Assembly: GCA_012032285.1 (NCBI GenBank)
Contig: JAAURJ010000007.1
Coordinates: 1-64,000, forward strand
DNA: 64,000 bases
Direction: 5' to 3'
Origin: Sphingomonadales bacterium
Lineage (GTDB): Bacteria > Pseudomonadota > Alphaproteobacteria > Sphingomonadales > Sphingomonadaceae
Part shown: positions 46,760-64,000 of the stretch, in pieces
Position numbering within the stretch: the stretch's first letter is position 1
Layout of the letters: every line of letters begins with the position of its first letter
The notes under the pieces: generated by a model
Databases searched by the model: none
What the model saw: the letters and a program-made list of their open reading frames with translations, nothing else
What the model was told of the DNA's origin: nothing
Program-made: the position numbers and the translations under genes

Positions 46760-48347
46760 TCAATGCAGGTGCGAATGGACAAAATCGGCACATCTTTCGC
46801 CAATCATGATGCTGGGCGCATTGGTATTGCCGCTAACCAGACGGGGCATGATACTGGCATCGGCGACATAAAGCCCGGCAATGCCGTTGACGCGCAGCTG
46901 GCTATCGACCACCGCATCCTTGTCTGCACCCATGCGGCACGTTCCAACCGGATGGTATACACTGTCGGCACGCGACCGGATGAGGGCATCCAGCGCCGCA
47001 TCGTCGTCCAGCGGCGTATTGTTCACATCCACCCCTGCATAGTCCGCCATCGGCGAGGTTTGCATGATCCGGTGCATGATTTTTACGCCGCTGCGCAGCA
47101 CCGCCATATCGCGTTCATCGCTCAGGAAATTGGGGTCGATCACCGGCGGCGCGGCGGCATCGGTACTGCCCAAACGCACCGTGCCCCGGCTTTCGGGACG
47201 CAATACACAGGCATGGCAGCTAAAACCATGCCCTTTTACCTTTTCCCGGCCATGATCCTCCAGCGGTGCGGGCACAAAATGATATTGCACATCGGGCGAT
47301 GGCGCATCAGGGGTCGTTTTGACGAAGCCGCCCGCTTCGGCATAGGGTGTGGTCAGGGTGCCGGTCCGCTTCATCCTATGTTCGACCGCCGCCTTTGCCA
47401 TGCGCCATGTGCCGGGTAGCGAATTGCCAATAAAGTCTTTGGACTGCGTCATAAACCGGCTGACATAATCAATATGGTCCTGAAGATCGCTGCCGACGGC
47501 GGGGCGGTCCAGCACAGGCGCTATGCCGTGCTCCTTGATATACGCAGCAGGACCGATCCCCGATAGCATCAATATTTGCGGTGAGTTAAAGGCACCCGCA
47601 GACAGAATAACCGCCCCCCCTTGCATGAATCCTGCGGCTGCGTGCGCCCTGGCGGATTTGCACAGCGACTGCGCGGCCATTTTCAACGATGATTTTTTCG
47701 GTTAAACTGTCGGTCAGCACGGTCAGGTTAGCACAGGATTTTGCAGGTTCGAGATAAGCCCGCGCGGCAGACCAGCGTTCGCCGCCTTTTTGTGTGACCT
47801 GATACAGGCCGAAACCATCCTGTTTTGCACCGTTAAAATCTTCATTGCGCGGATATTGCAGCTGCGCCGCGGCCTCGACAAAGGCGGATGAACCGGGGTT
47901 AGCATAATGTTGATCCATGACATTAAGCGGTCCGCCTGTTCCATGATAGTCATCATCGCCGCGTTCATTATGTTCGGCACGTTTGAAATAGGGCAGGACA
48001 TCATCAAAGGACCAGCCGTCGCAGCCCAGCGCCGCCCAATTGTCATAATCCCATTGCGCCCCGCGGATATAGACCATGGCGTTGATCGCACTGGACCCGC
48101 CTAGCCCGCGACCGCGCGGTTGATATCCGGTCCGCCCGTTCAGCCCTTTTTGCGGAACAGTATCATATTTATAGTTAGACTTTTCTGGCAAGAAAGGAAG
48201 GAAACCGGGGGTTTTGATCAGGAAATTATCGTTGGTCCCGCCTGCCTCGATCAGGCAGACGCTATATTTGCCCCCTTGCGAAAGCCGCCCCGCCGCCGCG
48301 CTGCCTGCGCTGCCACCACCGATAACGACAATGTCAAATACATCCAT
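46760..48347 (-). CDS. GMC-family oxidoreductase (frameshift near 47645)
   Basis: Choline dehydrogenase type flavoprotein. FAD motif IVVIGGGSAGSAAAGRLSQGG, RGRGLGGSSAINAMVYIRG, AGAFNSPQILMLSGIGPA, and the C-terminal active-site region YHPVGTCRMG (His) and LVSGNTNAPS. The reading frame breaks at VAVQIRQGA; dropping one base near 47645 gives HAAAGFMQGGAVILSAGAF. About 529 residues. Oxidises an alcohol; substrate unknown. Confidence 0.88.
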
Positions 48348-49458: not shown

Positions 49459-51139
49459 ATGCCCGCATTATCCATGAACCGATATTTTGGCCTGACTGGC
49501 ATTGGCTCCCTGATTATATCTTTAGTATTTTTTGCAGCATCGGCTTTGCACAAGATTTAAGCAGTGACAGCACGCAAGCGGCTGCTTCGCCGCCAGCATC
49601 GGAGCCAGAAAATACCAATCCATCCCCAACAACAGATGATAATGGTGCCGAACCCGTTATTGGCCCAGCCGATGTTCCGGCCAATAGCTGCCTTGCCAAA
49701 GCCGGGACGCTAGATGGAACCGGCGCGGATTTGCCGGAAACTATTGATGGCACTGCATTCAAAAAAACATCGCACCTTAAAAAAATCCTGAAAAAAACAA
49801 AGGATGGCGGCCTGCTCCTTATTGTCGGCGGCGATTTCAAAAATTGGAAAATGAACGACATTAAACATCTGTCCAATATCTGTTTCAAAGACATCGACTT
49901 TTCAAACAGCGACTGGTCAGGGGGGCGTTATGAAGGCATTGGATTTATCAATTCCAACCTAAGCGGTGCAAACCTATCAAACGTAACAATGCCCCATATA
50001 TTGCTGCGTTCCACCATATTGGAAAATACCAATGCAAAATATGCCGATTTCAGCTTTGGTCAGCTTGACGGCAATTGGGACGCATCCATCGCCAATTGGG
50101 ATTTGAGCCAGGCCAAGCTTAAAAATTTCCGTTTCAGCTGCGGCAATGCCGAAAGCAATGGCTGTGCCTTTAACCGGCAGGGCGTGATCATTACCGGAGC
50201 CGATTTCAGCAATGCGACCCTGATCAATTTTGCCTGTGGGACAGCGATTGGTCGACCACAAAGTTGGATAATGCGATTGTTACCTTGAACCAGCTGCCCT
50301 ATTTTACCGGCGCAAAAATAGAAGACCGCCTGTTAATTACCGGCGCAGGACAGATTGGCAGTATCGGCGCTGCGGCGCTTCCTCTCATTTCCGAAATGCA
50401 AAGCAGACGCTGTGAAGACATAGCCGACAGCGCTGCTCGATTTGCCTGCGATACAAAGGATGATCGGTTGTTTTCACTGGCACAGGATGTGGCGATCCTG
50501 ACCCGCACGAGCGAGAGCAAGCTGGCCAGCGGCCGTTCGTTCGATCGGCATCAGCAGGCGATAGAAGCCTGCCGTTCGGGTGATGACGAAACCGCGAAAC
50601 CCGGCTGTATTGGTGAAGCGTTAACCGCACGGCGCATGGCCTTGCTGCCCGCCACCGCCGCACCTGCATTGGCAGAAAGCGCCGGTTTTGCGGTCTATTT
50701 GGAAACCACGCTGGACACTGCCAAGCCGGGCGCTGCGGCGGCATTGGAACAAATGGCAAGCGTGCTTGCAGGCACCAGCAACCATGTGGTGTTGATGCGC
50801 AGGACCGCCAATGGCGGAGATTTGCAACTGCGCGGCGCCAAACGCAATGCTGAGGGTCAAAAAATCTGTCAGCTGCGTTCCGACCGGGCGGCTTTTCGCG
50901 GGGCCAATTTATATAAGGACATCACCGATCGCAGACAATCAGGGGCAATCACCGCTTACAGTTTTGAAGACCGGTTGGTAATGGACCTGCACAGCTATAC
51001 CAGCGCGGGTGGTAGCGAAGCCTGCACCGGTACATCAGCGCAAAGCCTCGTCTTCATCCCGATCGGAGGGGCCGATTTTGAACGGCTTTGGAGCGGCTTG
51101 GATTCAGGTTCGGTGCTAGGCTCCGGTCCCGATCGCTAA
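49459..51139 (+). CDS. Secreted pentapeptide-repeat protein (frameshifts near 49548 and 50238-50240)
   Basis: ATG at 49459 after AAGGA. A signal peptide (FGLTGIGSLIISLVFFAASALA) is cut by the first shift; one more G gives QDLSSDSTQ and an Ala/Pro/Ser-rich linker. Pentapeptide repeats follow: SNLSGANLSN, NTNAKYADFSFGQLDG, NWDLSQAKLKNF, GADFSNATL. A second missing G restores CGDSDWSTTKLDNAIVTLN and a C-terminal region of about 290 residues rich in Ala and Asp with several Cys. About 560 residues. Function unknown; periplasmic or outer surface. Confidence 0.7.
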
Positions 51140-52112
51140 TCCGCCTTTTTTCCATAACGCGCCATAATATCCTGCATCGCGTTGGCGCTGATGGTCAGTC
51201 CAGATTTTTCCAAGTCTGCCGAAGGCCATGCGCCCGATAGCAACAATGTGCGAACCTGCGGCGGGGGCGGGGGTGGCCATGGCAGGCCCGGCACCTGCGC
51301 CTTTTGCAAAGCTTTGCCTTGGCGTCGCTTTGCCCCTTGCCGGCATCGAGAATAGACGGCTTCGTCAATTGCCATGCGGGCAATGCACCCGCACCGCCAA
51401 TTTGCCACAAAGACGCTCCATTTTCATAGAGCAACAGCGCAATTTCGTAATTTTCCATCGACAGTGCATCATGGATTGGCGCGAAACCCAATGCATCGGC
51501 GGCGTTCACATCCGCCCCGTGACGCAGCAAGGTCATCACGCCGCCCTTTGCGTCAAAGGCAAACAGCTCTTTCATAATATTTTTGCCGTTCAACTTTGCC
51601 GCATCGCTGCTCGCGCCCGCTTGAAGCAGCATTTCGGCCATGGCCGGGCTATCGGCAAGTAAGGCAAGTGTGAGCGCCTCCCCTTTTTGCACCCCGTCGG
51701 CTGCCGCGCCTTTGCCGAGCAAAAGGGTCAGCATATCCGCATTGCAACTGGCCACTGCAAAGGTCAGCAAATCGCCATATTGCCCGGTCGGCGGCGCATC
51801 CATCTTCGGATCATAAAGCACCTGCGTCGCCAAAAGTTTTGGATCGGAATCGATCATCGCTGCGGCTTTTTCCAGATCGCCCGCAAATATCGCTTCGGCC
51901 AATAATTTTCCCGATTGCCCGCTGCTTAAATGCGCGGCGATTTTTTGCATCGACGGTCGCACCGCCGATGGCCGGGCCGAAAAACAGCTATTGTTCTGGG
52001 TCACGTCGCATCCTCCGAGAAGCAAGGAGGACATTGCCCCCAAAAAAGCCGCTTTTGCCATGCGCCTGCGCACCAAGGATAGAAGAGCTTGCGAAGAAAA
52101 GCGGCTGATCAT
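51136..52112 (-). CDS. Ankyrin-repeat lipoprotein (frameshift near 51320)
   Basis: Start at ATG 52112 (MISRFSSQALLSL) or 52061 (MAKAAFLGAM); both include the lipobox LLLGGC. Four to five ankyrin units follow: LLTFAVASCNADMLTLLLGKG, ALTLALLADSPAMAEMLLQAG, HGADVNAADALGFAPIHDAL, YEIALLLYENGASLWQIG. The frame breaks after GQSDAK; one added base gives KALQKAQVPGLPWPPPPPPQV with a Pro-rich end. The final codons overlap the convergent pentapeptide gene by four bases. Possibly a periplasmic protein-binding partner. Confidence 0.75.
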
Positions 52113-52183
52113 AAGCGTATCCGGCGGTTGATAAAGCATGATAGCCCGGCTGGCAATCATTGCCCATGCCAGTCGTCATCACG

Positions 52184-53128
52184 CTACAGGCTGCTGACGA
52201 CCCATTCCATGCCATGACGGGCTGCGGGATTGTCCTGATACCATTTGACGCCTTCTGGCCGGACCGCGTCAATACCGATGCGCCGACCATAGGCTTCGGG
52301 CGCGTCGAGGATCGCCGCACCCAATAATCCGCCCAGCACGCCGCCAATCACCCGGTCACCACCATCCTGCAAAAGCGACAGAATTTCACCCCGCACAAAA
52401 TAGGCGTCGACCGCGCCCGCCCGGTCCACACCTGCGGCCATGCGCAGGCTTTCGGCGGTTTTGACGGTATTGGCGCTTAGCCCCGATGCGTTAAAAGTCG
52501 TCGCAGGAATCCCGCCCGATATGGCCGCAGCCGAAGCCAGCCCGCCGCCCAGCGAATGGCCGGTAAAGGTGACATTGCCATTGCCGTAAAGCGCAATCTT
52601 CTGCCCGATCTCCAATGCCTTGCGGTAATTATCGGGGGACAGGCCCACGCTTTGTTGAAAATTGGACCGCCAATCGCTCGCCGATTGTGACCCGCGGAAA
52701 GATACCACATAGTGGGTGTCAGCCCCCGTGCCGGTCACATAGACACGCGCCTTGAACGCGCTTTGTGTTGATGACAAATCCTGAGGGTTCAAACCGAGAG
52801 CGCCCAGATCACCCGGCGTTGCGGCGCGGTATCCCGATGGCGGATTGGGGCTATCGCGGTAGACATCCTGCGCCAAAAGGGCAAGGTCGCGGGGCTGCGG
52901 CCCTGCGGCAGGCGCGCCCGAAGCTTGCAGAGCGGAAGCCGCAGCTACTGTTGTTTTTACGGTGGCAGGCGGCAGTGCATAAGCCGCAATTTCGCGCGAC
53001 GGTATCGCCAATATCGCATCCGCAAATAGAGCGCGGGGCATTGCGGGCATATGCCGCAATGCCTCGGATAGAATCCGTCCCGTCACTGTCTGGGACAAAC
53101 TTTGCGTCTGTCCTATTGCCGATACCAT
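52184..53128 (-). CDS. Class-3 lipase-like protein without Sec signal
   Basis: 314 residues. Alpha/beta hydrolase core from about 85: LALLAQDVYRDSPNPPSGY, YVVSFRGSQSASDWRSNF, nucleophile Ser192 in FTGHSLGGGLASAAA, likely Asp in DAYFVRGEILSLL and His in ARHGMEWV. The first 25 residues (MVSAIGQTQSLSQTVTGRIL) have no hydrophobic signal; they are Ser/Thr/Gln-rich, as many T3SS substrates are. A Gly/Ala hydrophobic patch VIGGVLGGLLGAAI occurs near 270. The gene is about 1.5 kb from the type III secretion genes; effector status is inference. Confidence 0.78.
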   Translation of the reverse strand: MVSAIGQTQSLSQTVTGRILSEALRHMPAMPRALFADAILAIPSREIAAYALPPATVKTTVAAASALQASGAPAAGPQPRDLALLAQDVYRDSPNPPSGYRAATPGDLGALGLNPQDLSSTQSAFKARVYVTGTGADTHYVVSFRGSQSASDWRSNFQQSVGLSPDNYRKALEIGQKIALYGNGNVTFTGHSLGGGLASAAAISGGIPATTFNASGLSANTVKTAESLRMAAGVDRAGAVDAYFVRGEILSLLQDGGDRVIGGVLGGLLGAAILDAPEAYGRRIGIDAVRPEGVKWYQDNPAARHGMEWVVSSL

Positions 53129-53339: not shown

Positions 53340-53812
53340 TTGACCGGAATAGACGGCACACGACGCAAAATCATCTCCGCCGCAGGCGCAGCCGGTAAAG
53401 CGGCAAGCGCCAATAATGTGGCGGCACGCGAAATGACGGGCATTACCGGACGCATAGGGGCGGCGCTGTCCGATGCCCTTAACCTTGTTGATGGAGATGG
53501 CAAGGGCGGCGGTAAGGGCGGCGACTTTGGCGGCGAAGCGGATCCATATGAAATCGAATCAATATGCGATGCGCTGGAAAAAACTATCCGGGCAGCGCCG
53601 CCGATCGCGGACGACTGACCCGCAGCCTGCATGAATTTGCGATTGAAGGCGCGGCGTTATTCGCAGCCCGGCCCGAGGCAAGGGCGCTCAGCCATATTCA
53701 AACGGCCATTGCTGCTGTGCAAAATGCCCCTGCCTCTTCTGACGCATCGCTGCGGAGCATTGCCGATGCGGTGGACAGCGCGACGAGCGCGATACGGAGG
53801 AAGGTCGCATGA
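53340..53812 (+). CDS. Protein of unknown function paired with the DUF1521-like gene (frameshift near 53592-53602)
   Basis: TTG start at 53340 behind AGAGGGG. First part: TRRKIISAAGAAGKAASANN, GITGRIGAALSDALNLVDGD and a Gly/Lys/Asp linker; after one added base: ADRGRLTRSLHEFAIEGAAL, LSHIQTAIAAVQNAPASSDASL, IADAVDSATSAIRRKVA. About 157 residues, Ala-rich and mostly helical, without signal peptide. Not recognised. Four-base overlap with the next gene suggests a chaperone or partner for it. Confidence 0.55.
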
Positions 53813-54642
53813 TCAGCACAAGCCTCTCCCTTCTCCCCGCTTTTCCTGCGGCCATTGACGGCGCGGCTATGGGCGGCCTGCAACCGGTCGAAAAACTCGG
53901 CCTTGGGCGCAATGAAATCGGTTTCACACAAACCGCGCCTGGCCTGCTCGAAGCCCGGTTGGAACGCTACTATCAGCTGACAATTGACCAAAATGCGGCA
54001 TCGGTAAAAGTGGAAAATCAAAAGCTGGGAAAAGCCATCACCATTTTTGCGATGGATGCAACGATCATGCCCGAAAGCGGGGATATGCTCAGCTTTGCCG
54101 GGAAAACCAGCCTGTCATTTGGCGATGACAGCAAAATCACATTGGTGACCAACTATAAATCCGGCCAGCTGGCGCCAGCTTCCATCAGCAACATCATCAT
54201 ATCATCGCACGATAAGGGCAGCGTCGTCACCGGGCTGGGCAATACAGATACGCCGCTGATCATTGACAGCAGTAAGTCAGGCTACCGGCTCGATGAAATC
54301 CATAAGGACGGATTGCTGTTGGTTGAAAAAAATGATGGCGATTATGAGCATGAAGATGGCGCCGTGCTTGATCAGCTTTTGCTTAACAAAACATTGGAAG
54401 GCGGAAAATTTGGTCCGCAAACCAACAAGCAAAGCGATCAGGAATTTATGCAAAAGATGATTGCCGTCATGGTCAGAAATCTCTCTTTGATGTCGGTATC
54501 AATGGCCTATTCCAGCCTGACTGATCCGATCCGGGAGGATATCATCCGCGATTCAAACCGATCATCTGATGAGCAAAAAGCCTATGAAAGGCGTTTGCGC
54601 ATATTACATGAACAGAAGGATTTTTCCGCCCAGTTGGATTAG
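53809..54642 (+). CDS. DUF1521-like protein, candidate secreted protein
   Basis: 277 residues, no Sec signal; Ser/Ala-rich N-terminus MISTSLSLLPAFPAAIDGA. Central region resembles the DUF1521 (MIIA) domain of rhizobial NopE effectors: YYQLTIDQNAASVKVENQ, LSFAGKTSLSFGDDSKITLVTN, NIIISSHDKGSVVTGLGN, GYRLDEIHKDGLLLVEKNDG. The calcium-triggered autocleavage motif GDPH is not present at the expected place (IFAMDATI there). C-terminal 80 residues helical. Convergent with the T3SS operon, 18 bp apart. Effector role is inference. Confidence 0.6.
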   Translation: MISTSLSLLPAFPAAIDGAAMGGLQPVEKLGLGRNEIGFTQTAPGLLEARLERYYQLTIDQNAASVKVENQKLGKAITIFAMDATIMPESGDMLSFAGKTSLSFGDDSKITLVTNYKSGQLAPASISNIIISSHDKGSVVTGLGNTDTPLIIDSSKSGYRLDEIHKDGLLLVEKNDGDYEHEDGAVLDQLLLNKTLEGGKFGPQTNKQSDQEFMQKMIAVMVRNLSLMSVSMAYSSLTDPIREDIIRDSNRSSDEQKAYERRLRILHEQKDFSAQLD

Positions 54643-54660: not shown

Positions 54661-55308
54661 TTATCCTTTTGCCTGCTGACCGGGAAGCATTGGTGATTGC
54701 ATTGGCGCAAATTCCACCGATGCCACGCGCAGCTTTTTCTGTTTGAGCCGATAGGCGAGATCGGCGGCAACTCGGTTCATCACAGTGGCGGGCAATTGCC
54801 CCTGACCTTGAAGTTGGATGGCAATCCGTCCTGCCCCGTCGCGGGCCAATATCACCGATTCAACCGACATCGCGCCCATGGGTAGTTGCAATTGAAACTG
54901 CGCATTCAACCCGCGGCCCGCCAGCTCCTGTATCGCCGCCGCCATTTTTTCCAGATGCGCCGGTAATGGCTCTGCGCTGGCTTTCGTCTGCTGCGCAGTG
55001 GCGGCATTGATTCCTCCCGCCCCCGCCCGCAACGGCATAGCGGCATCGCCGCGCTCGCCCAGGCCCTGACGCTCATCCTGCAACAAGCCGCCGGGTGATC
55101 GCAATATTGCTTTTTTCCCGTCCCCTTTGGTTTCGGGGCTTTTCTGCTCCTCTTTGCCGTCCATTTTTCCGGCTTGGCGCTCCATGCTTTTCTTGAACAG
55201 ATTTTGCCGTTCCCGGCTGGCATCCGGCGCCGTGCGGTGATGCGGCGCCGTTGTTTGTGCGCCCTGAGTCATGGAGGGACCATTGCCTTTACCATTGCCT
55301 GTTATCAT
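54661..55308 (-). CDS. sctP: T3SS needle-length control / FliK-like protein SctP
   Basis: 215 residues. Low-complexity N-terminal half (Gly, Lys, Gln, Pro) and a C-terminal domain of about 90 residues: LNAQFQLQLPMGAMSVESVIL, RIAIQLQGQGQLPATVMNRVAADLAYRLKQKKL. This two-part form and position after SctO fit the SctP/HpaP/FliK substrate-switch proteins. Last gene of the operon, four-base overlap with sctO. A stop and convergent gene follow, so sctQ is not here. Confidence 0.6.
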   Translation of the reverse strand: MITGNGKGNGPSMTQGAQTTAPHHRTAPDASRERQNLFKKSMERQAGKMDGKEEQKSPETKGDGKKAILRSPGGLLQDERQGLGERGDAAMPLRAGAGGINAATAQQTKASAEPLPAHLEKMAAAIQELAGRGLNAQFQLQLPMGAMSVESVILARDGAGRIAIQLQGQGQLPATVMNRVAADLAYRLKQKKLRVASVEFAPMQSPMLPGQQAKG

Positions 55309-55802
55309 CGAAGCGCTCCTGCAAATTTTTGGGGCGCACCTGTTGCCGCGGGACGCTGCCGCGATTCCTGCATCTCTTCCATCGCCGCCTCATCGTGCCG
55401 TTCCTTTTGACGGAGCAAAAGCTGCTTCTGCTGCGCTAGGAATGCATCGCAGCGTGCTTCGCAGGCCGTTACGTCCCGCTGACCCAACTTAAGCGCCGCT
55501 TCTGCTTCATCCAATGCGGCACGCGCCTCTGCCTCCCTTTCGATCGACCGGTCCAGATGAGCCTGCGATTCGCCCTCCCAAATTCGCAGCTGTTCAGCTT
55601 GCGGTTCGCCGCGCATTTGCCGCTGTGCATCGGAAAGGCGCGTCCGTGCGGCCGCCACCGCCCCGATTGCAATATCCAATTGCTGCTGCGCCGCGGCCAC
55701 CGCCTGAAGCGCACGGGAAAGCATTTGCTGCGCCTTGGACAAACGGGCTACCGCCACTTTTCTGGCCTGTGCCAGCTGCTCTATCCGATCAGCAAGCGTC
55801 AC
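55305..55802 (-). CDS. sctO: T3SS central stalk protein SctO
   Basis: 165 residues, almost entirely coiled coil with heptads of Ala, Leu, Gln, Arg: LADRIEQLAQARKVAVARL, QMLSRALQAVAAAQQQLD, AHLDRSIEREAEARAALDEAEAAL. Size, coiled-coil content and place after the ATPase gene are those of SctO/FliJ, which links the ATPase to the export gate. Overlaps both neighbours by four bases. Confidence 0.7.
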   Translation of the reverse strand: MTLADRIEQLAQARKVAVARLSKAQQMLSRALQAVAAAQQQLDIAIGAVAAARTRLSDAQRQMRGEPQAEQLRIWEGESQAHLDRSIEREAEARAALDEAEAALKLGQRDVTACEARCDAFLAQQKQLLLRQKERHDEAAMEEMQESRQRPAATGAPQKFAGALR

Positions 55803-57114
55803 AGTTCACCATCGCCAAAGGCCCGCAGCCGCGCAACCGTTTGCGCCATGCTACTTACCTCGCCCGTTTCCTGCTGCAAAAAGGCTTCCATCTCCTCCCG
55901 GCTGTCAATCGCCCGGTCGGCCATCCGGTCGCGGCCCGGTTCATAATCACCCATCTGGATCAGTAATTCGGTATCGCGCAGCTTTTGCTGCATCGCCCGG
56001 ACCAAAGCCGCCGATTTTTGCTGTTCGCGGGAGGCCAGCCGGGTAAAGAGCCGCGAGAGGCTGTCCAAAACATCAATCGCCGGATAATGGCCGCGCGCCG
56101 CCAATTGGCGTGAAAGGGTGATGTGGCCGTCGAGCAGCGAGCGAACCTCTTCGCCTATCGGATCGCCATCTTCTTCCTCCAAAAGCACAGTGTAGATACC
56201 CGTAATTGATCCCGTTGCTGCCACCCCGGCGCGTTCGAATAAACGCGGCAAATCGGCAAAAACCGAAGGCGGAAAACCGCGCCGGACTGCTGGCTCGCCC
56301 GCTGATAAACCAACCTCGCGCAGCGCCCGGGCATAGCGGGTGACGCTGTCCATCAACAGCAGGACATTTTTGCCTTGGTCCCGCATTCCTTCGGCGATGC
56401 TGGTGGCAACGCGGGCGCGCGGACCCGTTCCATCGCCGGACGGTCGGAGGTGGAGGCGATAAGCACCGAGCGTGCCAGCCCTTCTTCGCCCAGCACATCT
56501 TCAATAAATTCGCGCACCTCGCGCCCGCGTTCACCGATCAGGGCGATGACAATCGCATCCGTCTTTGCCTGCCGCGCAAGCAGCCCCATCAGTGTCGATT
56601 TACCGCAGCCTGCGCTGGCGAACACACCTATACGCTGCCCCGTGCCGATCGTCATCAATCCGTCAATAGCGCGAATACCGCTTTCCATAGCCGACGATAT
56701 TGGTGCGCGGTCAAGCGGATTGGGGGCCTCTCCATCCAATGGGCGCATTCTGTCTTGCGCAACCGGGCCCAGCCCGTCCAAAGGGTTCATCCGCGCATCA
56801 AACACACGGCCAAGCAAATCATCGCCGCAGGGAATTTCCGCCCGGCCGCTGCGCAGCACGACATCGCTATCGGGCGAAATACCCCGCAGCTCACCTAGCG
56901 GGGTCAGGATAATGTCTTCGCCATGAAGTCCGATAATTTCCGCCCAAAGCAAATGTTCGCCCGATGGGCTGACAATGCGGCAGCTATCCCCTACCCGGCC
57001 CGAAATGCCGCGTACGGTTATTGTCGTGCCAAGCGCAGTGACAATGCGTCCGCGCTGTTCAAATAAAGGTTCGCCGTGCAGGGCGGCGACAAGATTGCTA
57101 CCGGACCGGCTCAT
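55799..57114 (-). CDS. sctN: T3SS ATPase SctN (frameshift at 56411-56420)
   Basis: Hexameric export ATPase. Walker A in FASAGCGKSTLM at about 165-176, ALIGERGREVREFIEDVLGEEGL, RPAMERVRA before the break and, with one base added, RVATSIAEGMRDQGKNVLLLMDSVTRYARALREVGLSAGEPAVRRGFPPSVFADLPRL, read here in two parts. It is followed by SITGIYTVLLEEEDGDPIGEEVRSLLDGHI, as in SctN/FliI. About 438 residues. The catalytic RGFPPS segment and Arg residues are present. Confidence 0.93.
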
Positions 57115-57749
57115 TCCTCCGAATCCTCTTCATCCGTGGGCGTTGCTGACGGCGGCGTCATATTGGCCACGCCCCATTTTTCCGCTATCGCCGATAATTG
57201 CACCGATAGATCCGCGACAATGGTGCGCTTTCCATCGGCCAAGTGGCAATCGGTATCGCCCAGCGCGGGATCAGCGATAAAATTGACGCCGCCAGATGGC
57301 TCAATACGCTCCGCCAGATTGGCTGCATTGGCGGGGCTAAGGTGCAATCGGACCGGCCCGTCTCCGCTATAGCTTTGCAATAATTTTCGCGCGATATGTT
57401 CGGTTACGGCCTGTTTTGGCATATCGCCAATGATACTGGTTGCTGCCGCCAGCGCGGCTTCTGCGACTGATGCCGACAAACGGGCTTCGATCGCCTTAAT
57501 CTGCCGGGCAAAATCTTCTGCATTGTGCGCAAGGCTCTGCGTCAACATCGCCCGCGCCTCTTCCAAAGCATCATCATAGGCGTCTTGCCGCGCCTTTTCC
57601 AACACGGCCTGCTGCTCCGCCGCCCTGTCGCGGATATCGGCAAGCAGGTCCGCCGCGCTGTCAAAATCTTGCCGGTCGCTGGCCTTTAGGACGCCGTTGC
57701 CGGTTCCTGTAAAGCTGCCTTCGGGCAGGTCGAGGAGGAAATAGCTCAT
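57111..57749 (-). CDS. sctL: T3SS stator protein SctL (FliH/YscL-like)
   Basis: 212 residues. Helical N-terminus with ADLLADIRDRAAEQQAVLEKARQDAYDDALEEARAML in two stretches, then a C-terminal domain ARLSASVAEAALAAATSIIGD and VRLHLSPANAANLAERIEP typical of SctL/HrpE, ending NFIADPALGDTDCHLADG. Regulates the ATPase. Translationally coupled to sctK and sctN by four-base overlaps. Confidence 0.8.
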   Translation of the reverse strand: MSYFLLDLPEGSFTGTGNGVLKASDRQDFDSAADLLADIRDRAAEQQAVLEKARQDAYDDALEEARAMLTQSLAHNAEDFARQIKAIEARLSASVAEAALAAATSIIGDMPKQAVTEHIARKLLQSYSGDGPVRLHLSPANAANLAERIEPSGGVNFIADPALGDTDCHLADGKRTIVADLSVQLSAIAEKWGVANMTPPSATPTDEEDSEE

Positions 57750-58330
57750 ATTGTCTCTCCTGCTTCATCCGCCGCATCCGCCTCACTGGCCCTATGGCCA
57801 TGACGCATCACCAGCGGTATGGCGAGCGCCGTCAGCCGCGCCGCAGGATCGTTACCGGCGGCACCAGCAAATTGTCCCGCAGCGCTGACCGGCAATCCTG
57901 CGGCCAATAATTTCCACCCTAAATGCAGCAGCATATCAGGCCGGGGCACCAAATGGGTGAGCGGGGTTTGATCCGCTTCATCCAGATCAAGCCCGCATAA
58001 GGCTTCGAACAAATCGTCCCCCACTGCACGGGCAAAAGAGCTTAGCCGTGGTCCTGAAATTTCCATGTCGATCGCGCTGCGGCAAGACAATATGGCCGCC
58101 GCCTGTGCCAGCCGGTTCTGCTGCGCCTCATCCCAGCTTATCCATATAGGCAAAATGCGCAGCAATTTGAGCCTGTCATCATTTGACGCGGCATTTTGCC
58201 GGAACCGGGCGCTTCTTGCCCTATCTGTCTTTATCCCTGCGGCCTGCAACCGGCGTGCGAAGCGTTGGCGCCGTTGTCCGCTTGATTCCGGCGGTGCCGT
58301 TTCGGGATCAGGGGCAGATGCATTCATCAT
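57746..58330 (-). CDS. sctK: T3SS accessory sorting-platform protein SctK-like
   Basis: 194 residues, no signal or membrane segment. Middle part FARAVGDDLFEALCGLDL and LLHLGWKLLAAGLPVSAAGQFAGA. Sequence identity to known SctK cannot be judged here; the call rests mainly on position between sctJ and sctL, as in Ysc-type operons. Translationally coupled to both. Confidence 0.5.
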   Translation of the reverse strand: MMNASAPDPETAPPESSGQRRQRFARRLQAAGIKTDRARSARFRQNAASNDDRLKLLRILPIWISWDEAQQNRLAQAAAILSCRSAIDMEISGPRLSSFARAVGDDLFEALCGLDLDEADQTPLTHLVPRPDMLLHLGWKLLAAGLPVSAAGQFAGAAGNDPAARLTALAIPLVMRHGHRASEADAADEAGETI

Positions 58331-59121
58331 TCCGTTGTATTTCCATCCATAGACGCAGGCACATTGGCGCTATCCTTTCGGCGCCGGGAAAACCACGCCC
58401 TTACCGCAAGGCCAAGCAGCCCCAAGGCGGCCAAAATGGCGATTATACGCAGCACCGATCCATCATTCACACGGCCCGCCGCAGCCGGAGCGGGCGGGCC
58501 CGATGCCGCCGCCACCATCATCACCGAGACATTATCAGGGGCCAGTCCTTCCACTCCATTGGCCACCAATGTTTTGACCCCGCTGCTATGTTGCCGCACA
58601 TCAAAACCGCTGCGATATTTGATCAGCACCGATGCCGTTGTCGGCTTTACCTCCCGCGTCACCGCATCGGGTTCGGGCATTCCCAATTGCACCCTTGCGC
58701 TGACCACGCCGTCAATTTCGCTGATGGTGCGGGCAAGATCATTTTGTGTGGCGCAGACAAGGCGGGCCTGCTGCGACAGGGCGGTTTCGCCGAAACCTGC
58801 GGGCTGAAACGCCGAACATAATGTTTCGCTTTGCGCCCTTGGCAGGCCGCGCACCTGCAACAGGGATACCGATTTGGCAAAATCATCGTCGCTGACTGCG
58901 ATGTCCCACTTACCCTCCTCAGCTGCGGCTTTGCTGGCGGAGACACCATTTTCGTTCAAAACCGCTATAATCTCATTCGCATCCTGTTCGCTTAAACCCG
59001 ATTGCAGTTTTTGTTCGCTGCACGCTGCCAACATCAATATGACTGACAATATCAATATGTGCCGCAAGCGATTGCGCCATAGCGATGCCAATCCGGCATC
59101 TGCCGGAAAATAAATGTTCAA
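58327..59121 (-). CDS. sctJ: T3SS inner membrane ring lipoprotein SctJ
   Basis: 264 residues from a TTG at 59121, which follows GGGAG and opens a lipoprotein signal ending LMLAAC (Cys34). Mature part is a YscJ/FliF ring domain: SGLSEQDANEIIAVLNENGVSAS, DIAVSDDDFAKSVSLLQVRGLP, ETALSQQARLVCATQNDLARTISEIDGVVSARVQ. One C-terminal membrane helix (LRIIAILAALGLLGLAVRAWF) and a basic tail. A longer reading to ATG 59187 would overlap sctI. Clear SctJ. Confidence 0.9.
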   Translation of the reverse strand: MNIYFPADAGLASLWRNRLRHILILSVILMLAACSEQKLQSGLSEQDANEIIAVLNENGVSASKAAAEEGKWDIAVSDDDFAKSVSLLQVRGLPRAQSETLCSAFQPAGFGETALSQQARLVCATQNDLARTISEIDGVVSARVQLGMPEPDAVTREVKPTTASVLIKYRSGFDVRQHSSGVKTLVANGVEGLAPDNVSVMMVAAASGPPAPAAAGRVNDGSVLRIIAILAALGLLGLAVRAWFSRRRKDSANVPASMDGNTTE

Positions 59122-59134
59122 AATTTCGGCTCCC

Positions 59135-59545
59135 TTACCCTTGTTGCCGGAATAATTGTTGCACACCGTCCGAACTGCGGTTGGCAATGTTGGAGGTGAG
59201 CTGGCACTGGAACATGAATTCCTGACATTTCATGGTCAGCTGCACAATCTCTCCCGGTGTTAATTGCCCACCGCTGGCTTCGGCGGTTGCCGCATAATCC
59301 GACACCGACTTCGCCTGCACATTCACATTGTCCAATGCGGAAAACATGGTTTTGATAGGTGCGGGCATTTCGCTGCTGCTGGCAGGGGAGACGGCCTCGG
59401 CGCGCTGCATCGATTGGGTAAACCGGGTATTAAGCTGTGGACTACCGCCTTCCGGTGCAAACAGCCCGTCCATATGATGCGTGCGCATTGCGCCCGCCTC
59501 TTGCCCCTTGCCAACGGCGGAGACGACCATTGTTTCGGCTGCCAT
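59135..59545 (-). CDS. sctI: T3SS inner rod protein SctI
   Basis: 136 residues. The C-terminal 45 residues (GEIVQLTMKCQEFMFQCQLT then NIANRSSDGVQQLFRQQG) fit the YscI/PrgJ ending, a helix finishing in a Gln-Gln. N-terminal part is Ala/Met/Gly-rich and longer than in YscI (115). Sits between the needle-like gene and sctJ, as in other injectisomes. Confidence 0.75.
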   Translation of the reverse strand: MAAETMVVSAVGKGQEAGAMRTHHMDGLFAPEGGSPQLNTRFTQSMQRAEAVSPASSSEMPAPIKTMFSALDNVNVQAKSVSDYAATAEASGGQLTPGEIVQLTMKCQEFMFQCQLTSNIANRSSDGVQQLFRQQG

Positions 59546-59548
59546 AAA

Positions 59549-59854
59549 CTATCCTTTCCGGGCCATGGTTTCCAGCGCTTTGGACACCGAATCCAAGGAT
59601 GTGTGAGAGCTGTTTGCCATGAAGCTCATCCGCATTGATTCTGCGGTCAGCTGAGTGATATCCGATGGCCGGTCCAACCCTTCCTGGCCCAAGGCTTCCG
59701 ACCGTTGCACAATCACATCGGCCTGCTTGTCCAATGCCTCACCCCATGCCGTGGCAAAGGCTTCGAACCAGTTTTTGCTCCGCTGTCCGCCCGATACCAG
59801 CATGGGCGAATACATCATATTACTGGCATTGACTCTATCGACAGGATTACTCAT
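59549..59854 (-). CDS. sctF: T3SS needle protein SctF-like
   Basis: 101 residues, small and helical with no signal. C-terminal helix PSDITQLTAESMRMSFMANS and SLDSVSKALETMARKG follow the spacing seen in needle subunits. Slightly longer than the usual 60-85 and the assignment is by position and shape. Directly upstream of sctI by 3 bp. Confidence 0.55.
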   Translation of the reverse strand: MSNPVDRVNASNMMYSPMLVSGGQRSKNWFEAFATAWGEALDKQADVIVQRSEALGQEGLDRPSDITQLTAESMRMSFMANSSHTSLDSVSKALETMARKG

Positions 59855-59881
59855 TTTTGTTTCCTTCCTTGCTGACTTAAC

Positions 59882-61258
59882 TTATTGACTTGCGACCACT
59901 TCACTACTCTCCCCGCCCTGCGCGGCGGAGCTTGTTCTGGTGTCTTGCACCACCCCATCTTGCGCAGGCATATCGGCGCCCTCAATGACGACCAATTCCT
60001 CAACAATGCCCATGCGTTCGAACCGGATCCGGCCCCCGGAAATATCAATCAGGTTATGGCCAGTGGGCAGCTTCGCCCCCTTCATCCAGGTCGTGCCGTC
60101 TGCGGTGCGGATAAAAGAGGGGTCACCTTCGACATAAGTGGCATAACCAAAACTGCTTTTTGAGAAAAAATATTGCAGATTATCATCGCCCCTTTGCCCG
60201 GTCATGGCAAAGGAAACTGATTTGATCAGCGGCAGATCGGCAAGGATCGCTTGCCGCAACTCCGCCTGACGGTTGCCGGGAAGATATTCGCTATCAATCA
60301 CCAGCGATCGGCCATTGCCGGGCCGGGCCTGAGCGTCGATCGCCTGCGCTTCCAATATCGCGGTCGCGCTATCGGCAAGGCCATCCATGCTTTGCACGGC
60401 AATTTCGGCGTCAGGATATTTTTCACGGGCATAGTCACGCAGCCGGTCCAGTTCGGCATCGGTACGCAAAAGACCGGTGATCATCAAATGGCCGTCCGCG
60501 GCCTGTTCCACCGACAGATCGGCAAAACCAACCCGTTCCAGCCTGGCCTCCACCGCAGATGGGTTATGAAAACTTTGCCCGATCCAATCACGGGCGGGGA
60601 TATAGCCGATGATAGCAATGAACAACAACGCCGCCGCCGCCGCCCATATCGGCCAGCGTCTTTCCAATTGCCATCTCTCCTCCAAAACCTGATACCGTGC
60701 AGAAAAATGGGTTAGCATATTTTGGAAAGCCGCGCCTTCCATTGGCATTTTGGTTAGCAATTGTCCGGACGCACTTTTGGTCTGTGTTTTTTCGGTCGCT
60801 GCCACCATAGATGGTTCAGACGCAATGTGCTCTTCACCCGAAGGATTGCCGGTTTCTTCGTCTGTTAGGGAAGGCCAATTCTGCTCCGTCAGGCGCAGCG
60901 CTTCATCCCACCGGTCCGATTGAGCATCGCCAATTGCGATAAAAACACCGCCCGCTTCAAATGGCACAAAGGGTGGAAGCTGTGCCCTTGCGCCTTCGCT
61001 TAACTCTTGCCCCAACAAACCAACCGTGCCCGAAAGCATTTCGATAACCGAAACATCGCCGCCCAGATGGAGCGCCAGCGAAAAATCCTTATCCTTTATA
61101 CCGCGCAGAACAATGTCATGGGAAAAACTATGGCCGATTGTCACCTTCAATCCGGGCGAGAGGCGATAGCGGGCATCGCGTTGCCGCCCGGTCAGCACGC
61201 GCAAAATCATGCCCGCCTGCATTTGTGCGTTGGTGGCTGCGTTCATGGCCAGATCCAT
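59882..61258 (-). CDS. sctD: T3SS inner membrane ring protein SctD
   Basis: 458 residues. N-terminal FHA-like cytoplasmic domain (ARYRLSPGLKVTIGHSFSHDIVL), one membrane helix WPIWAAAAALLFIAIIGYIPA near 205-225, then periplasmic ring modules: VEARLERVGFADLSVEQAADG, LDRLRDYAREKYPDAEIAVQS, NRQAELRQAILADLPLIKSV. This FHA-TM-ring order is diagnostic of SctD (YscD/PrgH). The FHA phosphothreonine-site residues (RL-GHS) look partly kept. A second start at 61246 is possible. Confidence 0.85.
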   Translation of the reverse strand: MDLAMNAATNAQMQAGMILRVLTGRQRDARYRLSPGLKVTIGHSFSHDIVLRGIKDKDFSLALHLGGDVSVIEMLSGTVGLLGQELSEGARAQLPPFVPFEAGGVFIAIGDAQSDRWDEALRLTEQNWPSLTDEETGNPSGEEHIASEPSMVAATEKTQTKSASGQLLTKMPMEGAAFQNMLTHFSARYQVLEERWQLERRWPIWAAAAALLFIAIIGYIPARDWIGQSFHNPSAVEARLERVGFADLSVEQAADGHLMITGLLRTDAELDRLRDYAREKYPDAEIAVQSMDGLADSATAILEAQAIDAQARPGNGRSLVIDSEYLPGNRQAELRQAILADLPLIKSVSFAMTGQRGDDNLQYFFSKSSFGYATYVEGDPSFIRTADGTTWMKGAKLPTGHNLIDISGGRIRFERMGIVEELVVIEGADMPAQDGVVQDTRTSSAAQGGESSEVVASQ

Positions 61259-61279
61259 TTGCGGTAAAGGCGAGGCGGT

Positions 61280-63118
61280 TTAATCATATTTATTCCCGCG
61301 CCGCTTTTTTTTGTCTCCATCAGGCAGTTTGCTCAAATCAACCGGATTGAAACTGCCCGCTTGGCCAGCCGATGCCGCCGCTGAAATAGGACGGTTAGAC
61401 AATATACGCGGGGTAATGATCACAATACGTTCAACCCGGCGATACCCCTTTGTCCTTGTACCGATAATCGGCAGGCCGCGTTTCGAATTGGTGGTTTCCT
61501 CAATCGAAATACCTCCAATGATAAGGCTCTCCCCTTCCCGAATATCGGTTGAGGTGGATAGAAGATTATTTTTGATGATCGGCAAATTGCTCCCCGGCTG
61601 AATACCGATCAGTTGCCCGTCACGGACGTCAATATTCAACCGCACCATCAATGAGTCAGTTTCGCGTGTTATGCTTGGCAAAATTTTCATGAACGTGCCA
61701 AAACGGTAATCTACAATTTGCGCCACACGTTCGCCTTGCGCTACCACCGGGTAAATTTGCCGGTTATCGCTGATCGCAGGTTCATTGTCGCGGGCGATCA
61801 AACGTGGGCGCTGCTCAACGCGGGCATAACCTTTATTTTGCAGCGCATTGATTTGGGCAGAAACAAATTCCGCAGGCGATGTTAGGCTATCTGTCGATCG
61901 CAGGTCCAATGACACTCCACCGCTATTCAACGTGCCGCCAAAAAGACCGCCCAGCGCTTTGACCCCAAAACTTAAATCAATACCCAAAGAACTTAGTTTG
62001 GACACATCCAAGTCCAAAATCACCGCTTCGATTTCCACCTGCACTTTGGGCCGGTCAAGGGTGCGGATCAGGCCGTCATACACCTCCATCGCTTCGGGCC
62101 GGTCGCGGATCATCACAGCATTGCGGTCCGCTACGGCAGTAATGCGGGGGCCATTAGGATCGGGACGGCTATTGTCTTTTTGTACTACCACCGGCGGGGC
62201 AAAGGGATTGCCATATCCGCCGCCGCCGCCATATAATATGCCGCTATCCACTTCACCCTGCGTGGGCAGTTGCCTGTTGCCCTTGGCAATCACTTCGGCG
62301 CTTTGCACCGCCCCGTCGCCCATGATGGCGGTAATCTGCGATGCAACGCCGGGTATGACAATAGTCTGATCCCCGGCCGCTATTGTCCGGTCCTGCGCGT
62401 CGGCATATTTCAGGAAATAGGTGCGCACTTCATAGGGCTGCCGCGCGGTCGACCGGCTTGAAACACTGTAATCCGGGTCATAACTGGACGGGTCATATTT
62501 TTCGGGCAAGGATTTGCGTGCTGCCATGCCCTGCCCCGGCTTGTTAAGCGGAGACACGATATCTGATCCGTCAGGGACAGCAGGGGTTATGGCCGCCTGC
62601 GTCACATCATTGGATGCAATAACCGGCGGCGGTGCTGCGGTCTGCGAAAGCTGCGCAATACGCTCCAGAAATTCGGGCACGCCTGATGCGACAACGCTGC
62701 CATTGCCGGCCTTCACCGAATTGCCATTGCCGGTCAGCTTCATTCGCTGCGCCTGCGCCACAACGCCAGCGGGCGATTCCGTCCGAAAACTGCGCGAGCT
62801 AATCTCGTCCGCGGCATAAATACGCACAACCGAACCATCATAATAGGCGACCATGTTAAAGGTTTTGGACATTTGCCGCCAGATATTGCCCGGCTTGTCT
62901 ATCCATGTCGCTGACAAATTCTTATTGCTGATCCGGTTGCTTATCTTCACCTTCAGGCCCGATTGGGCGAACAGGTCCATGACCGTCGATTGCACACTTT
63001 CCTGTTGCGGCGATAGCTTAATCGTTTTCGACGGAAAGGGAGGTTCAGATGCGTTTGCCACACCGGAAAAGGGTATAGTCAAAATGGCTATTGCCAAAGG
63101 CAGGCATCTCTTGGTCAT
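61280..63118 (-). CDS. sctC: T3SS outer membrane secretin SctC
   Basis: 612 residues. Sec signal MTKRCLPLAIAILTIPFSGVANA; N-terminal periplasmic domains N0-N1 (SVQSTVMDLFAQSGLKVKI, AYYDGSVVRIYAADEISSR), further N domain with RPEAMEVYDGLIRTLDRPKVQVEIEAVILDL, and the C-terminal secretin core: VEQRPRLIARDNEPAIS, MKILPSITRETDSLMVRLNIDV, RGLPIIGTRTKGYRRVERIVIITPRIL. The secretin defines this as an injectisome and not a flagellum. Four-base overlap with sctV. Confidence 0.93.
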   Translation of the reverse strand: MTKRCLPLAIAILTIPFSGVANASEPPFPSKTIKLSPQQESVQSTVMDLFAQSGLKVKISNRISNKNLSATWIDKPGNIWRQMSKTFNMVAYYDGSVVRIYAADEISSRSFRTESPAGVVAQAQRMKLTGNGNSVKAGNGSVVASGVPEFLERIAQLSQTAAPPPVIASNDVTQAAITPAVPDGSDIVSPLNKPGQGMAARKSLPEKYDPSSYDPDYSVSSRSTARQPYEVRTYFLKYADAQDRTIAAGDQTIVIPGVASQITAIMGDGAVQSAEVIAKGNRQLPTQGEVDSGILYGGGGGYGNPFAPPVVVQKDNSRPDPNGPRITAVADRNAVMIRDRPEAMEVYDGLIRTLDRPKVQVEIEAVILDLDVSKLSSLGIDLSFGVKALGGLFGGTLNSGGVSLDLRSTDSLTSPAEFVSAQINALQNKGYARVEQRPRLIARDNEPAISDNRQIYPVVAQGERVAQIVDYRFGTFMKILPSITRETDSLMVRLNIDVRDGQLIGIQPGSNLPIIKNNLLSTSTDIREGESLIIGGISIEETTNSKRGLPIIGTRTKGYRRVERIVIITPRILSNRPISAAASAGQAGSFNPVDLSKLPDGDKKKRRGNKYD

Positions 63119-64000
63119 GCAGCGTTCCTCTCTGCAGCAGATAAATTTTCATCATGATTGAGCGCATCCGCCGCGCGGTTCATTTCGCCCAATATATCAA
63201 GCGGCACGGCGGGGTTGAGCTCGTTAAAAGACAGCACGGCGGTGCCCGGCAAATCGGCCCCGATCAAAAGCCGCAGCGGGCGGCGCAAATCCTGTGAGGT
63301 TAAAATCACCTGCGCCCCAGTTGCATCGCTTTCGCTGCGCACCAGCGCGATCAGGGCGCGCATTTGCGCCGGGTTTATGGCCAGCCGGAACTGCCCGTCC
63401 ACCTCGGTCAATGTCTCACGGATAATCGCTTCTAACTCGCTACCGATCATCAACGCTTTCAACCGGCCATCGACGCAAAGCGGTGCATTGATCTGCCGTC
63501 TTATGGCCACACGCACGCGCTCCACCATAGGTCCGGTATCGCGCTCATATTGGGCGACATCGGCAATGGCCTCTACTATGTCGCGTAAATTGCGGACCGA
63601 AACGCGCTCTTCGGCCAGTATCTTCAATATCTCGGCAATCTTGCCCACCGGCACGGCGCGAACCGCTTCTTTGACGACTTCGGGATATTCCTCACCCAAC
63701 CGGTCGAGCATATTGGTAACTTCCTGAAGCCCCAAAAATATCGGCAGGTTATTTTCAAGCAGATGCTCGGTCAGCAGCGCGATATGCAAGGGCGGGTTTT
63801 CGGCGCTGGATATGCCCTGCCCCAGCGGCGCTTCAAAAGCCTGCAAATCCCAGCCATTGGCCGTAAAATCCCCACTGCAATCGAGCGAAAGTGTGGGGAT
63901 GGGAACACCGGTGCGCGTCTGCACCCGTTCCACCGCCGCCGCGACTTCTGCATTCAGTAGGGCGAAATCGGGGCTGCCGCTTTCTATACCAACCGTCAGC
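63115..64000 (-). CDS. sctV: T3SS export gate protein SctV, C-terminal part (5' end outside window)
   Basis: FlhA/YscV family. The visible 295 residues, open to the window edge, are the cytoplasmic nonameric ring: VERVQTRTGVPIPTLSLD, ALLTEHLLENNLPIFLGLQEV, EYPEVVKEAVRAVPVGKIAEILKILAEERVSVRNLRDI, YERDTGPMVERVRVAIRRQI, LTSQDLRRPLRLLIGADLPG. The membrane half lies beyond 64000. First gene seen of the operon. Confidence 0.92.
   Translation of the reverse strand, partial: LTVGIESGSPDFALLNAEVAAAVERVQTRTGVPIPTLSLDCSGDFTANGWDLQAFEAPLGQGISSAENPPLHIALLTEHLLENNLPIFLGLQEVTNMLDRLGEEYPEVVKEAVRAVPVGKIAEILKILAEERVSVRNLRDIVEAIADVAQYERDTGPMVERVRVAIRRQINAPLCVDGRLKALMIGSELEAIIRETLTEVDGQFRLAINPAQMRALIALVRSESDATGAQVILTSQDLRRPLRLLIGADLPGTAVLSFNELNPAVPLDILGEMNRAADALNHDENLSAAERNAA

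Follow-up and report, generated by a model that had tools for sequence, protein, structure and literature searches.

Gene content suggests that a sphingomonad type III secretion system is used mainly against bacteria

What does a sphingomonad use a type III secretion system (T3SS) for? The accepted view of injectisomes is that they act on eukaryotic hosts; to our knowledge, a bacterial target is known only for the needleless T3SS* of Myxococcus, besides a suggestion made for Lysobacter. Sphingomonads are common in water, in soil and on plants. The question is raised by a 64,000-base stretch of DNA from a Sphingomonadales bacterium (GenBank assembly GCA_012032285.1, contig JAAURJ010000007.1), whose right-hand end encodes parts of an injectisome. 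This stretch, the window, makes up the first 64,000 of the 74,847 bases of contig C80, and the genome (2.78 Mb in 96 contigs) is listed as 97% complete. The original prediction, made from the letters of the window, left both the lineage of the system and its host interaction open. We conclude that the window and 10.8 kb to its right hold a complete non-flagellar T3SS gene set. Judging delivery and killing from the cargo, we think that this injectisome is probably used mainly against bacteria; the host interaction in question may be one with bacteria.

The original prediction read eleven minus-strand genes as sctV, C, D, F, I, J, K, L, N, O and P. Order and positions are as claimed, and family models back V, C, D, I, J, L and N (Table 1); what did not hold is sctN as one open frame, which proved to be two overlapping frames instead. 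The genes that it expected to the right of the window or elsewhere, sctQ, R, S, T and U, are present on the same contig at 66.8-71.4 kb, and sctR-S-T-U, which it expected somewhere in the genome, are thereby found. Besides these, the 10.8 kb to the right contain the rest of sctV, a lytic transglycosylase gene (PF01464), fliO and a LuxR-type helix-turn-helix gene. SctR, SctS and SctT score over their family cut-offs, and SctU and SctV score best with the SctU and SctV models though below cut-off. The FliO homologue, which lies inside the T3SS operon, passes its model (TIGR03500, 64.1 bits; cut-off 55.25). SctQ has no family match as a single sequence; an alignment of four SctQ sequences matches the FliN (E 5e-5) and YscQ-C (E 0.06) SPOA chains. 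No match to a classical translocator family was found among the window and right-flank proteins put to Pfam and NCBIfam. Translocators are no defining feature of the export machine itself.

Several lines of evidence bear out the claim that the system is non-flagellar. Both SctN pieces score best with TIGR02546, ahead of the FliI models. On a SctV tree, the window's protein clusters with 14 other T3SS sequences from sphingomonads, and FlhA from the same genome lies outside the T3SS rows; flagellar FlhA and FliP are encoded on a separate contig (C83). The tree and these separate genes rule out a flagellar export system. The 15 sphingomonad rows form one side of a branch with a Shimodaira-Hasegawa-like approximate likelihood ratio test (SH-aLRT) value of 100, with the references for rhizobial Rhc and for Burkholderia stagnalis Hrp2 on the other side, and this separate grouping rules out membership of Rhc or Hrp2. 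The tree, of 50 rows, was made by a quick method with SH-aLRT as its only support and does not settle the deeper order among T3SS branches; of the 74 rows extracted, 24 were taken to be flagellar and removed by locus number, and at least L119 and L071 of these may be T3SS. Identity of SctV to the plasmid records of rhizobia and B. stagnalis is about 36-37%, and every plasmid record listed stays below 60%. Like Rhc and Hrp2 injectisomes, the sphingomonad system is a non-flagellar T3SS; it has parts weakly resembling HrpB2 and HrpB7 and a comparable sctJ-L-N order, but differs in its separate SctV group and in the presence of FliO.

Among 396 Sphingomonadales genomes, the SctJ model scores over its cut-off in 13, the scores leaving a clear gap (181 versus 88 bits), and of the 7 other genomes listed in the window's genus none passes the cut-off. 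The cluster is of the FliO type in 12 of the 13, that is, in the window's genome and 11 of the 12 others. The remaining genome, G070, belongs to another family of the order and carries a different T3SS type (C2:112565-152564; L056, L068), with no FliO or SctV match in that stretch. The window's genome is listed in the same family as G362, the genome whose stretch includes locus L010 of Sphingomonas pituitosa, in agreement with the earlier description of the genome as sphingomonad-like. We compared 14 clusters: the window's own, G362 (S. pituitosa), L011, L013, G381, G125, G224, G301, G169, G227, G105, G368, G053 and G287. Excluded were L012, nearly identical to L013 over the genes compared, the partial locus L014, and G070 with its other T3SS type. 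All 14 contain sctV, C, D, F, I, J, L, N, U, fliO, sctR, S, T and the transglycosylase gene, while the LuxR-type gene is found in 13, sctQ in 12 and sctK in 11. Neither the sctK-like protein (Pfam, NCBIfam) nor the sctP-like protein matches any family, and no open reading frame (ORF) of another cluster is linked to SctO or SctP at E 1e-5.

The first indication of a bacterial target comes from a pair of genes beyond sctP, a lipase gene followed on the same strand by an ankyrin-repeat gene. The lipase has no clear signal peptide at its N-terminus. Tle6 lipases of the type VI secretion system (T6SS) are reported to be invariably encoded with ankyrin-repeat immunity proteins, and the immunity protein of E. 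cloacae to be a periplasmic lipoprotein (PMC11470151); PDB 7ubz, which the window's lipase matches, appears to be the protein of that study. The window's lipase and ankyrin lipoprotein match the Tle6-Tli6 arrangement, as do pairs in five other clusters (6/14 in all). A lipobox pattern occurs in five of the six ankyrin proteins (inside a long ORF in G362), and the sixth, from G381, has a hydrophobic N-terminus. The likeness to Tle6-Tli6 (PMC11470151) lies in a homologous lipase beside an ankyrin-repeat lipoprotein; the sphingomonad pair differs in standing at a T3SS, and its genomes gave no match to the T6SS sheath protein VipB.

Relatives of the lipase (E <= 1e-3) occur in 15 of the 396 genomes: 8 of the 12 with the FliO-type T3SS versus 7 of the 384 others. 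At E <= 1e-19 the counts are 6/12, all six cluster-linked, versus 4/384; the match of G298 has an E-value of 1.8e-20, and at 1e-20 the T3SS-negative count becomes 3/384. VipB was found in four of the seven lipase-positive genomes that lack the T3SS, namely the four with the strongest lipase matches, and in none of the six with a cluster-linked lipase. It was not found in 12 of the 13 SctJ-positive genomes, G125 being the exception, nor in 11 of the 12 with the FliO-type T3SS; the window's genome is included in both counts. That genome likewise gives no match to VirB4, a marker of the VirB/D4-type type IV secretion system (T4SS). On these grounds, one marker each in a draft genome, we reject a T6SS and a VirB/D4-type T4SS as the carrier there. 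An ankyrin relative also adjoins most lipases of the lipase-positive genomes without the T3SS. The lipase tree is poorly resolved: its sole starred group consists of three lipases from T6SS genomes, and the T3SS-linked lipases do not form one side of a branch. Separately, the lipase relative in G298 (C9:114016-124618) lies about 9 kb from a T6SS VipB gene.

Toxin candidates of antibacterial type recur at the relatives' clusters, with at least one, the lipase included, in 12 of the 14 for the stretches examined, up to about 20 kb either side of sctJ (for L011 and L013 the count rests on ORF fragments at the locus ends). We chose candidates by inspecting the flanks and ran Pfam on selected flank proteins (one for G053, none for G301). 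LysM occurs together with NlpC/P60 and phage-tail lysozyme domains in G362, with relatives in G368 and L011; with phage lysozyme in G224; and with Hydrolase_2, below cut-off, in G287, a relative of which, with M23, lies at 73-74 kb of the contig in the window's genome. G105 encodes a VgrG3-like C-terminus and a LysM protein. The nuclease candidates are Endonuclea_NS_2 proteins in G224, G125 and G227, with a homologous fragment in L013, and a colicin DNase with WHH in G169. NCBIfam gave no toxin name for these candidates; those with LysM matched general cell-wall families. At the very end of the window's contig (74.1-74.8 kb; L005), G+C climbs to 61-66%, and stretches that by eye resemble a TRAP transporter and an isomerase run in frame into the peptidoglycan hydrolase. 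This is probably a chimeric contig end.

The neighbours of these candidates look like immunity genes. Exported proteins or lipoproteins adjoin most envelope toxin candidates, and cytosolic proteins adjoin the nucleases; the split of 9 versus 3 on hand-picked pairs is a pattern and not a fair test, and the G287 hydrolase breaks it. Two SUKH proteins neighbour the G169 nuclease (SMI1_KNR4, E 1.5e-10 and 2e-16). SUKH is an immunity family. Four nuclease proteins share an N-terminal motif that occurs in no other of 2774 ORFs, a pattern suggestive of polymorphic toxins. Twenty toxin and neighbour queries matched none of 17 control stretches, a set that leaves out L180 and includes one stretch of 710 bp and the window's own first 20 kb. 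Antibacterial use is thus suggested by toxins whose neighbours are sited where the toxin would act, and by a lipase family that accompanies the T6SS in the strongest cases without the T3SS.

Two further families are associated with the system. DUF1521 (PF07481) was found in 10 of the 396 genomes, 10/12 with the FliO-type T3SS versus 0/384 others (Fisher p 3e-18), and the association includes unlinked genes. The window's genome, which gave one match in this survey and two in a separate search, has a second copy on contig C13 with the GDPH motif (IWGDPHV; PF07481 E 1e-56). The C13 copy is therefore a DUF1521 protein with a GDPH cleavage motif, as defines the NopE/MIIA type; the window's copy is without GDPH. 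Proteins of 200-290 aa with a needle-like C-terminal domain lie near 11 of the 14 clusters. In one such longer paralogue, the C-terminal domain that it has in common with the SctF-like protein matches PF09392 weakly (E 0.027). Profile searches with the SctF-like and long needle-like families gave no credible hit among solved structures, and for the SctF candidate no confirming match to solved needles; PLSDB yielded no match to the long family. In 9 of these 11 clusters the gene directly adjoins one from a family that includes a DUF6683 match; the long protein of the window's genome is on contig C64, followed by a gene alike by eye. Members of the DUF6683-match family beside the long needle-like gene (L049 1640-6988 in G105, and relatives) have signal-peptide-like N-termini, and several stand in tandem in G105. 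DUF1521 and the longer needle-like proteins are probably secreted, as parts of a tip or translocon or as effectors.

Table 1. Features at the right-hand end of the window and the evidence for each (positions are those of the window).
Feature	Position	Strand	Evidence
sctV	63115..64000, on to contig 65085	-	656 aa in total; PF00771; best model TIGR01399, 604 bits for the full protein, below cut-off 692
sctC, secretin	61280..63118	-	PF00263; TIGR02516 240.4 bits, over cut-off 238.45
sctD, inner-membrane ring	59882..61258	-	TIGR02500 E 1e-17, 64 bits, below cut-off 86; HrpD5 E 3e-13, below cut-off
sctF-like, needle subunit candidate	59549..59854	-	Place; homologue in 14/14 clusters; C-terminal domain common to longer paralogues
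sctI, inner rod	59135..59545	-	PF09487 HrpB2 E 0.005 and PF17001 (T3SS_basalb_I) E 0.006, both below cut-off; 14/14 clusters
sctJ, lipoprotein ring	58327..59187	-	TIGR02544 183.4 bits, over cut-off
sctK-like	57746..58330	-	Place; family in 11/14 clusters including the window's (10/13 others)
sctL, stator	57111..57749	-	PF02108 over cut-off; TIGR02499 E 3e-11, below cut-off
sctN, 5' part, own frame	56353..57114	-	TIGR02546 E 4e-72
sctN, 3' part, other frame	55799..56386	-	TIGR02546 E 9e-79
sctO-like	55305..55802	-	Place, size; PF09486 HrpB7 E 0.018, below cut-off
sctP-like	54661..55308	-	Place, size; weak tblastn match in L011 (23% identity, E 4e-5)
Divergent DUF1521 protein without GDPH, candidate secreted protein	53809..54642	+	PF07481 E 6e-9; beside sctP
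Two short ORFs in different frames, jointly like an accessory family of about 150 aa	53340..53812	+	Family near 9 other clusters; likeness by eye only, not by BLAST
Tle6-like lipase, candidate antibacterial effector	52184..53128	-	GHSLG motif; PF01764 over cut-off; PDB 7ubz 'T6SS lipase effector' E 1e-17
Ankyrin-repeat lipoprotein, candidate immunity protein	51195..52160	-	Ank_2 E 6e-9; lipobox LGGC; 3' end apparently frame-broken (by eye)

How might such a system work? FliO would help the SctR/S/T/U/V gate to form, and the dedicated lytic transglycosylase would open the cell's own peptidoglycan for a conduit built by secretin, rod and needle. Toxins without signal peptides, among them a phospholipase, peptidoglycan hydrolases and nucleases, could then be exported into neighbouring bacteria. 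The producer would be protected by the products of neighbouring genes, exported proteins and lipoproteins acting against envelope toxins and cytosolic SUKH-type proteins against nucleases. In this scheme the gene set, its lineage, the linkage of the genes and their association across genomes are observed, while secretion, injection, the bacterial target and immunity are deduced from them. With a little less assurance than we have in a mainly bacterial target, we favour a broader picture in which a full needle-bearing injectisome has become an antibacterial weapon of general use that stands in for the T6SS. Such a weapon would have interchangeable effector and immunity pairs and polymorphic nucleases that share an N-terminal export domain, and its lineage would be marked by FliO and DUF1521.

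Several observations weigh against antibacterial use. The evidence is gene linkage, which is not secretion, and the toxin candidates were picked by inspection of the flanks. VirB4 is present in 3 of 5 lipase-carrying genomes tested; 3 of the 7 lipase-positive genomes without the T3SS, those with weaker matches, have no VipB match; and the lipase matches of G169 and G224, both with the FliO-type T3SS, are weak and unlinked to the cluster. Near the clusters of G053, the first row of the clade to branch off, and of G301 no toxin was found; Pfam covered one flank protein of G053, and the contig of G301 is short. The LysM hydrolase of G287 has no obvious exported partner beside it. Finally, sctN and several of its neighbours are frame-broken in the present assembly.

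The chief alternative is a conventional injectisome against eukaryotes (plants, algae, protists or fungi), with the toxin and immunity genes being unrelated antagonism genes gathered in the same island. DUF1521 points in this direction: its relatives NopE1 and NopE2 are reported to be T3SS-secreted nodulation proteins of a legume symbiont, and VIC_001052, from a coral pathogen, to be encoded within its T3SS cluster, where the DUF1521 protein is described as cleaving itself with Ca2+ at GDPH. The secretin and the conserved needle candidate would suit such a machine, and the sctI-J-K-L-N-O order resembles the HrpB2-sctJ-HrpB4-sctL-sctN-HrpB7 block of B. stagnalis. A calpain-like protease is encoded near the G368 cluster. 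However, the repeated pairing of toxin and immunity-like genes has no evident use against eukaryotes, and such genes are absent from all 17 control stretches. The lipase family, moreover, goes with the T6SS in the strongest T3SS-negative cases and stands at the T3SS where no T6SS was found. We consider a purely eukaryotic target unlikely.

A dual system, in which most cargo acts against bacteria and some proteins, such as DUF1521 and the protease, act against eukaryotes, would accommodate both kinds of candidate, and both occur in these genomes. There is as yet no evidence of a eukaryotic target in sphingomonads, however, and we regard this combination as improbable.

The split sctN raises a last alternative, that the window's genome holds a decaying relic in which sctN and several neighbours are pseudogenes. 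Breaks also affect the flanking ORFs at 53340-53812 and a pentapeptide-repeat gene (49731-51139), whose ORFs, in two frames, match successive parts of one 591-aa protein that adjoins the lipase of G381. Yet an unrelated GMC oxidoreductase gene (46760-48347) is broken likewise, its GMC_oxred_N domain split across two ORFs in two frames, so the assembly may hold indels. With genes unrelated to the T3SS broken nearby, assembly indels are a simpler account of the split sctN than decay; assembly error is likely but unproven. The remaining core genes are uninterrupted and either match along their length or have the expected size, and the partner genes on contigs C13 and C64 are open as well. Among the relatives examined, the N- and C-terminal SctN matches share one frame in 4/4 named loci that have sctN and in 12/12 G genomes. 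A relic is very improbable.

Having weighed these alternatives, we return to the injectisome used mainly against bacteria and to its known counterparts. A T3SS in sphingomonads (2009) and FliO in the T3SS of Sphingomonadales (2025) were already known; the cargo we have not found in print. The T3SS reported in 2009 for Sphingomonas sp. SKA58, with features of both T3SS and flagellar motor, is likewise a sphingomonad system, but is described as tied to a large plasmid (Persson, PMC2702493). FliO is reported in virulence-type T3SSs, with Sphingomonadales among the orders named, and as in the window's system the homologue is described inside a non-flagellar T3SS operon (PNAS 2025, PMC12403147). 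The T3SS* of Myxococcus xanthus is reported to be needleless and needed for prey lysis (PMC12075869), which shows that parts of a T3SS can be directed at bacteria; for Lysobacter, a role of the T3SS in micropredation has been suggested. T3SS* is described as working without secretin, needle and translocon and with a Tad-like pilus, whereas the sphingomonad system has a secretin and a needle candidate (PMC12075869). The likeness between them is FliO, reported for both M. xanthus T3SSs (PMC12403147); the use on bacteria that is described for T3SS* is, in sphingomonads, suggested by genes. Among the literature matches listed, from open-licence papers, none concerns an antibacterial injectisome with immunity genes, in sphingomonads or otherwise.

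If sphingomonads do use this system against bacteria, the presence of a T3SS in a genome would no longer imply a eukaryotic host. FliO or DUF1521 would then serve as genomic flags for the lineage, and its clusters would be a source of new toxin and immunity pairs for study.

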